From Myxococcota bacterium (lineage in GTDB: Bacteria > Myxococcota_A > UBA796 > UBA2385): DNA of 64,000 nucleotides. This document shows, one piece after another, positions 60,201 to 61,315 of this stretch. The stretch covers positions 1 through 64,000 of the forward strand of contig JAKLKF010000018.1 of the NCBI GenBank assembly GCA_023150805.1. Reading direction: 5' to 3'. The notes beneath the pieces are model-generated. The model saw nothing but the letters and a program-made list of their open reading frames with translations. It did not search any database and was not told where the DNA came from. Both the position numbers and the translations under genes were made by a program. Position 1 is the first letter of the stretch, and every line of letters begins with the position of its first letter.

Positions 60201-60691
60201 CCCTGCCGCCGGGCGACCAGGTGCGGGTCACCGTCACCGTGCGCGCCCCGCCCGAGGTGGCCTTCCGCGTCTTCACCGAGGAGACCGACCTGTGGTGGCG
60301 CCACGGGCCGGCGTACCGCGTGGCGGGCCGCCTGCCGGGGGTGCTCGCCTTCGAGCCCGGCGTGGGGGGGCGGCTGGTGGAGCGCTTCCCCTCGCCGGCC
60401 GGTCCCCGCGAGCACGTCGCCGGCACCATCCTGGCCTGGGACCCGCCCTCCCGCCTGCGCTTCGAGTGGCGGGCGGTCAACTTCGCCGCCCACGAGCGCA
60501 CCGAGGTCGAGCTGCGCTTCGAGCCCACCGCCAGCGGCGGGACCCGGGTGACCTTGACCCACACGGGCCTGGCGGCGCTGCGCCCCGACCACCCGGTCAA
60601 GCACGGGCGCCCGCACCGCGAGTTCCTGGCCGACCTGGGCGGCTGGTGGGGCGGCCTGTTGGCGGCGCTACGACTCCGGATCCACGGGTAG
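60197..60691 (+). CDS. SRPBCC (AHSA1-like) protein
   Basis: 164 residues from GTG. Bet v 1-like fold: VRVTVTVRAPPEVAFRVFTEETDLWWR, FEPGVGGRLVERF, VAGTILAWDPPSRLRFEW, GGTRVTLTHTGL, and a final helix with FLADLGGWWGGLLAAL. Members bind hydrophobic ligands. It ends the VOC-ArsR-SRPBCC operon and overlaps the convergent selenoprotein gene by 24 bases. The same two folds are fused in the gene at 27.4 kb. Confidence 0.88.
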   Translation: MTLPPGDQVRVTVTVRAPPEVAFRVFTEETDLWWRHGPAYRVAGRLPGVLAFEPGVGGRLVERFPSPAGPREHVAGTILAWDPPSRLRFEWRAVNFAAHERTEVELRFEPTASGGTRVTLTHTGLAALRPDHPVKHGRPHREFLADLGGWWGGLLAALRLRIHG

Positions 60692-61315
60692 GCGGCGCGC
60701 GGCCCCGACCTGGTCGGCCAGGTCGGCCAGCACCTGGTAGGGCTGGCAGCCCACCACCGCGCGCGCGCCCTGGCCCAGGGTGCCCAGCACGAAGGTGGGG
60801 ATGCCGGGCACCCCCAGGCGCTTCGACTCGCGCCGGGTCGCGTCGATGCGGGCGAGCAGGGCGGGGTCGTCGGCGGCCCGCCGGGCGGCCAGGGGGTCCA
60901 GGCCGGCGCCCGCGGCCAGGGCCGCCAGGACGTCCAGGTCCTCGATGTCCCGCGCGTCCCGCCAGTGGGCGTCCATCGCCGCCTGCCGGAAGGCGTCCAG
61001 CCGCCCCTGGTCGCGGGCGTGCTCGGCCACGGCCAGCGCGCGGCGGGTGTTGGGCAGCCGGCGGTGGCGCGCCAGGTCCGTCACCCCGAAGCCGGCGGCG
61101 AAGGTCGAGAGCCGGTCGTGCATGGCGTCCAGGTCCATGCCGGGGAAGAGGCGGGCCAGCTCCATGCCGCCCCGAGGCGTCTCGGGGTGCAGCTCGAAGC
61201 CGCGCCAGTCGAGCGTGAGGTCGTAGTCCCGGACCAGCCTGGCCACGGTGCTTCGTTCGGCGACGAAGCAGTAGGGTCAGACGAAGTCGGTGTAGAGCAG
61301 GAAGGCGGTGGGCAT
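60668..61315 (-). CDS. DsbA/FrnE-like thiol oxidoreductase, selenoprotein (in-frame UGA)
   Basis: Reading from ATG 61315, the frame continues to 60668 with one internal TGA at codon 13 (61279-61277). It stands exactly where the family has the first Cys of the active-site motif: YTDFV-U-PYCFVAE against DFVCPWC. The rest is a standard DsbA/FrnE domain: a helical insertion (about 50-150), RLGVPGIPTFVLG with the cis-Pro loop near residue 180, and VVGCQPYQVL. The protein is 215 residues with selenocysteine at 13. A hairpin fitting a bacterial SECIS follows the UGA. A plain annotation would begin at 61246 and lose the active site. No signal peptide, so it should be cytoplasmic, like FrnE. It could act in redox stress or thiol-disulfide exchange. 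Confidence 0.85.
61249..61270 (-). promoter_or_regulatory. SECIS-like hairpin downstream of UGA
   Basis: On the minus strand TGCTTCGT (61270-61263) pairs perfectly with ACGAAGCA (61256-61249), an 8-base-pair stem closed by the loop CGCCGA. The stem starts 6 bases after the UGA. The loop's G is 16 bases after it, the shortest distance accepted for bacterial SECIS elements, which need a G near the loop start. Confidence 0.7.

Follow-up and report, generated by a model that had tools for sequence, protein, structure and literature searches.

A FrnE-like DsbA-family gene with an in-frame TGA at its redox site encodes a predicted selenoprotein in a Myxococcota bacterium

Introduction

How should a gene be read in which a TGA stands exactly where a thiol-disulfide oxidoreductase would have the first Cys of its CxxC redox motif? 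This question is raised by a minus-strand gene of a Myxococcota bacterium, located in a stretch of 64,000 nucleotides (positions 1 to 64,000 of contig JAKLKF010000018.1, assembly GCA_023150805.1) that is called the window below. DsbA-like selenoproteins with a UxxC site (COG2761) were described in 2005 from Sargasso Sea sequences (PMC1088965), were met again in the GOS data (PMC2398784), were counted in 2016 as 41 and 45, which we read as organisms and sequences, respectively (PMC5029168), and appear in a 2026 listing under the name 'DsbA-like protein form 1' (PMC13188914). Literature searches on FrnE as a selenoprotein returned nothing of use, and those on selenocysteine (Sec) together with DsbA in myxobacteria found no reports.

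Results

An open frame interrupted only at the first redox Cys

When read through, the minus-strand frame at 61315-60668 begins with ATG, comprises 215 codons followed by TAG and yields a product that starts MPTAFLLYTDFV-U-PYCFVAERST. Its sole internal stop is the TGA at codon 13 (61279-61277), which is the first Cys position of the redox motif in the context MPTAFLLYTDFV-U-P-Y-C, with the resolving Cys encoded by TGC at codon 16 (61268-61270). The mechanical ORF call for this gene starts at GTG 61246 and is missing the active site. The translation therefore agrees with the initial annotation, which had described an ATG frame with a single TGA at the first redox Cys and had expected gene callers to start at 61246 and lose the active site.

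Convergent with this gene on the plus strand are genes coding for a glyoxalase-family protein (59395-59880), a probable ArsR-like regulator (about 59855-60200, recognized by eye, with no Pfam match) and an AHSA1/SRPBCC protein (60197-60691), the last overlapping it tail to tail by 24 bp (60668-60691). Also on the plus strand, a short frame at 61379-61735 that contains GMPNHLHLDHP resembles, by eye, REP-associated Y1 transposases, likewise with no Pfam match. No operon partner of the TGA-containing gene is evident among these neighbors.

Family assignment and predicted fold

The read-through protein matches the Pfam DSBA family (PF01323) over residues 7-198 (1.2e-25, 90.8 bits relative to a cut-off of 25.6), and there is no match to NCBIfam profiles. 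Sequence matches in the PDB are limited to Deinococcus FrnE (3.3e-17) and Streptomyces SCO1869. An AlphaFold model built from an alignment of 20 sequences (the window gene plus relatives) has a pLDDT of 95 and a pTM of 0.90, and the solved folds closest to it are the FrnE entries 5co3 and 5cnw together with SCO1869 (TM 0.80-0.83). With a DSBA domain and with FrnE as best match in both sequence and fold, the DsbA/FrnE-like identity first proposed for this protein is well founded. In the model the first helix (residues 14-30) comes after a strand at residues 3-9 and opens with the U-P-Y-C site. A signal peptide has no room ahead of this first strand, indicating that the protein is likely cytosolic.

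Invariant columns in alignment A1, for which Sec was entered as Cys, are D10, U/C13, P14, C16, G168 and P173. Pro173, in the segment GVPGIPTF (codon at 60797-60799), occupies the cis-Pro position of the thioredoxin fold, and its cis configuration is presumed by analogy with the family. Deinococcus radiodurans FrnE resembles the present protein in its DSBA fold at the TM scores given above, in sequence (26-27% identity), in having no apparent signal peptide and in its CP[WF]C-type site. However, the present protein is predicted to have Sec where FrnE has its first Cys and is without the C-terminal CxxxxC, having instead a single extra Cys190, such that U13, C16 and C190 are its only Cys or Sec residues. 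The C-terminal CxxxxC has been proposed to regenerate the active site of D. radiodurans FrnE, and it is not universal, as some FrnE proteins are without it (PMC8945050). Its absence thus does not bar membership in the wider FrnE subfamily.

TGA or Cys at the same codon across the phylum

A homologue search of 284 genomes of the phylum located TGA exactly at the first Cys in 14 of them, which are the own genome (G000) and 13 others (G001, G008, G029, G030, G037, G050, G051, G054, G059, G088, G108, G142 and G260). There is also a paralogue in the own genome, on contig C343, that is 59% identical and has TGA at the matching site (UPFC). A Cys codon occupies the site in G042 and G038, which belong to one genus, in G141 and in most of the outgroup. 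The close clade on the tree consists of 11 Sec and 3 Cys rows, and across all 27 rows the Sec/Cys label needs five changes, indicating that Sec and Cys were exchanged repeatedly. Members of the close clade are 45-59% identical with the remainder of the frame intact. The initial annotation had suggested aligning homologues and had held that random stops elsewhere in close relatives would count against a selenoprotein; the aligned codon is TGA or Cys in the relatives, and the frames of the close relatives contain no other stop. Conservation of TGA at codon 13 in other genomes goes far beyond chance.

An order-level search added zero further genomes with the TGA gene, and a scan of genome contigs returned distant relatives only (23-30% identity). 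TGA also occupies the site in two DSBA-like proteins that are more distantly related, L076 (G142), which reads UPWC, and L075 (G088), which reads UPWA and so is without the resolving Cys. Cys190 (codon at 60746-60748, in VVGCQP) is present in all 14 close-clade rows, among Sec and Cys members alike, and is replaced in distant rows by Ala, as in most distant FrnE-like proteins, or by another residue.

The genome encodes the machinery for Sec decoding

The initial annotation had predicted that this organism uses selenium and had made the prediction depend on the presence of selA, selB, selC and selD. Every one of these is present in the own assembly (7.77 Mb in 398 contigs, 90.7% complete, 4.6% estimated contamination). 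Specifically, it contains a tRNA-Sec with anticodon TCA (69.6 bits over cut-off), SelA (480.6 bits) and SelB (295.7 bits), both above their curated cut-offs, and two copies of SelD, also above curated cut-offs. One SelD has Sec at an in-frame TGA (CGUAAK) and the other has Cys (LGCACK); the two SelD loci are L027 (G000:C177:35018-35944) and L026 (G000:C344:44869-45789). Contig C32 contains a gene resembling formate dehydrogenase alpha that also has TGA within UHAP, UHxP being the motif given for formate dehydrogenase (PMC13188914). The GC content of these Sec-related loci, 72-77%, is in line with that of the window (74%). Across the phylum tRNA-Sec is present in 13 of the 14 genomes with the TGA gene versus 166 of all 284 genomes (Fisher p = 0.005), and the only one lacking it, G029, is itself 73% complete.

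Candidate SECIS hairpins downstream of the TGA

The published model of a bacterial SECIS is a stem-loop located 16-37 nt after the UGA whose first two loop positions include a G (PMC13188914). Direct reading and folding of the minus strand identify a hairpin at 61270-61249, hairpin A (TGCTTCGT-CGCCGA-ACGAAGCA), with eight perfect pairs that begin 6 nt past the UGA and with a G as second loop base that is the 16th nt after the UGA. Its loop begins 14 nt past the UGA, and it matches the model apart from this spacing. Of the 842 TGAs in the window, 12 (1.4%) are followed by a perfect 8-bp hairpin with a 3-9 nt loop. Hairpin A taken alone is not significant relative to synonymous-codon shuffles (p = 0.15), and its register is not shared by relatives. 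The 8-bp hairpin with a CGCCGA loop thus exists as first described, but the SECIS role given to it is unproven, and we do not accept it as a proven SECIS since neither its spacing and register nor the shuffle test decides the matter. It is kept as a candidate only. An alternative candidate is hairpin B (61229-61248, minus strand), whose GGC loop lies 37 nt after the UGA, where the homologues of G001 and G054 also have their loop, and so falls within the model, but whose stem is weak (-3.5 kcal/mol).

Hairpins were also searched for across the Sec and Cys genes, requiring an uninterrupted stem of 4 bp or more, a loop of 3-9 nt with G in its first two positions and a loop located 16-37 nt past the UGA. 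Their registers differ: in G037, G051, G059 and G029 the loop is GGA and lies at 17 nt, G008, G108 and the own paralogue have a GGTC loop at 32 nt, and in G001 and G054 the loop reads GGCT or GGAT and lies at 37 nt. As a group, the 15 Sec genes have SECIS-like hairpins in excess of synonymous-codon shuffles, with a combined Fisher p = 6e-5 that is optimistic in counting related sequences as independent. The 12 Cys genes do not have such hairpins above synonymous shuffles (p = 0.60).

Discussion

The gene at 60668-61315 almost certainly codes for a FrnE-type, probably cytoplasmic thiol-disulfide oxidoreductase of the DsbA fold whose nucleophile is Sec (U13-P-Y-C16), with UGA 13 decoded via SelB. 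The proposal of a selenoprotein with a UPYC site draws its support from the Sec machinery, from in-frame TGAs at the Sec sites of other genes in this genome, from the occurrence of TGA or Cys at this exact codon in relatives and from the group-level excess of SECIS-like hairpins in the Sec genes, and Sec insertion at codon 13 is what we infer from them.

Other readings of the TGA have to be weighed against this one. A single substitution would be enough to convert TGC to TGA, and the source assembly is fragmented, so a sequencing or assembly error, or a decaying Cys gene, might be suspected. However, the paralogue and 13 other genomes have TGA at the same codon in a frame that is otherwise intact, and the genome has a complete Sec machinery; since independent genomes carry this TGA, error or decay is for practical purposes excluded. 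The frame would equally stay open if a reassigned code or suppression made TGA some other amino acid, a reading that we consider just as improbable given that neighboring genes terminate in TGA, as the one that ends at 60200 does, that SelD and formate dehydrogenase of this genome have in-frame TGAs where Sec is known to occur in them, and that the site alternates with Cys only. Scarcely more probable is a true product that starts past the TGA at GTG 61246 and has no active site. This is what the mechanical ORF call gives, but the codons upstream of it, covering strand 3-9 and U/C-P-[YWF]-C, are conserved as protein in homologues, and a DSBA fold cut at this point would be without its first strand.

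For the favored Sec-containing enzyme, UGA 13 would be decoded by SelB and Sec-tRNA-Sec, guided by a stem-loop close downstream in the coding sequence. Sec13 would then attack a substrate disulfide, or be attacked itself when oxidized, and Cys16 would resolve the mixed selenenylsulfide. By analogy with Deinococcus FrnE, its catalytic role may be the reduction or isomerization of cytosolic disulfides, probably in the setting of oxidative stress.

With a PF01323 domain, TGA at the first CxxC Cys together with Cys homologues, and a Sec machinery, the gene fits the DsbA-like selenoprotein family known since 2005. It shares with that family the Pfam assignment, a UxxC site with Sec first and widespread Cys homologues (PMC1088965, PMC2398784, PMC13188914). 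For the bacterial SECIS that the family has downstream, the present gene offers candidate hairpins. Relative to the family as described (representative NIP15863.1), the present lineage has Cys190, which may or may not occur in published members. We did not find this residue, confined to the close clade, described elsewhere, and it represents a modest novelty. One conjecture is that Cys190 could substitute for the C-terminal CxxxxC of Deinococcus FrnE. That the clade uses a three-residue relay of Sec13, Cys16 and Cys190, in which Cys190 takes the place of the regenerating CxxxxC, is a speculative and rather unlikely extension of this idea.

Beyond this the gene is an extension of a known family. 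The finding points to selenium use in this lineage, and it corrects a gene model that the automatic ORF call cuts at the active site, a correction that is also due in at least 13 related genomes.
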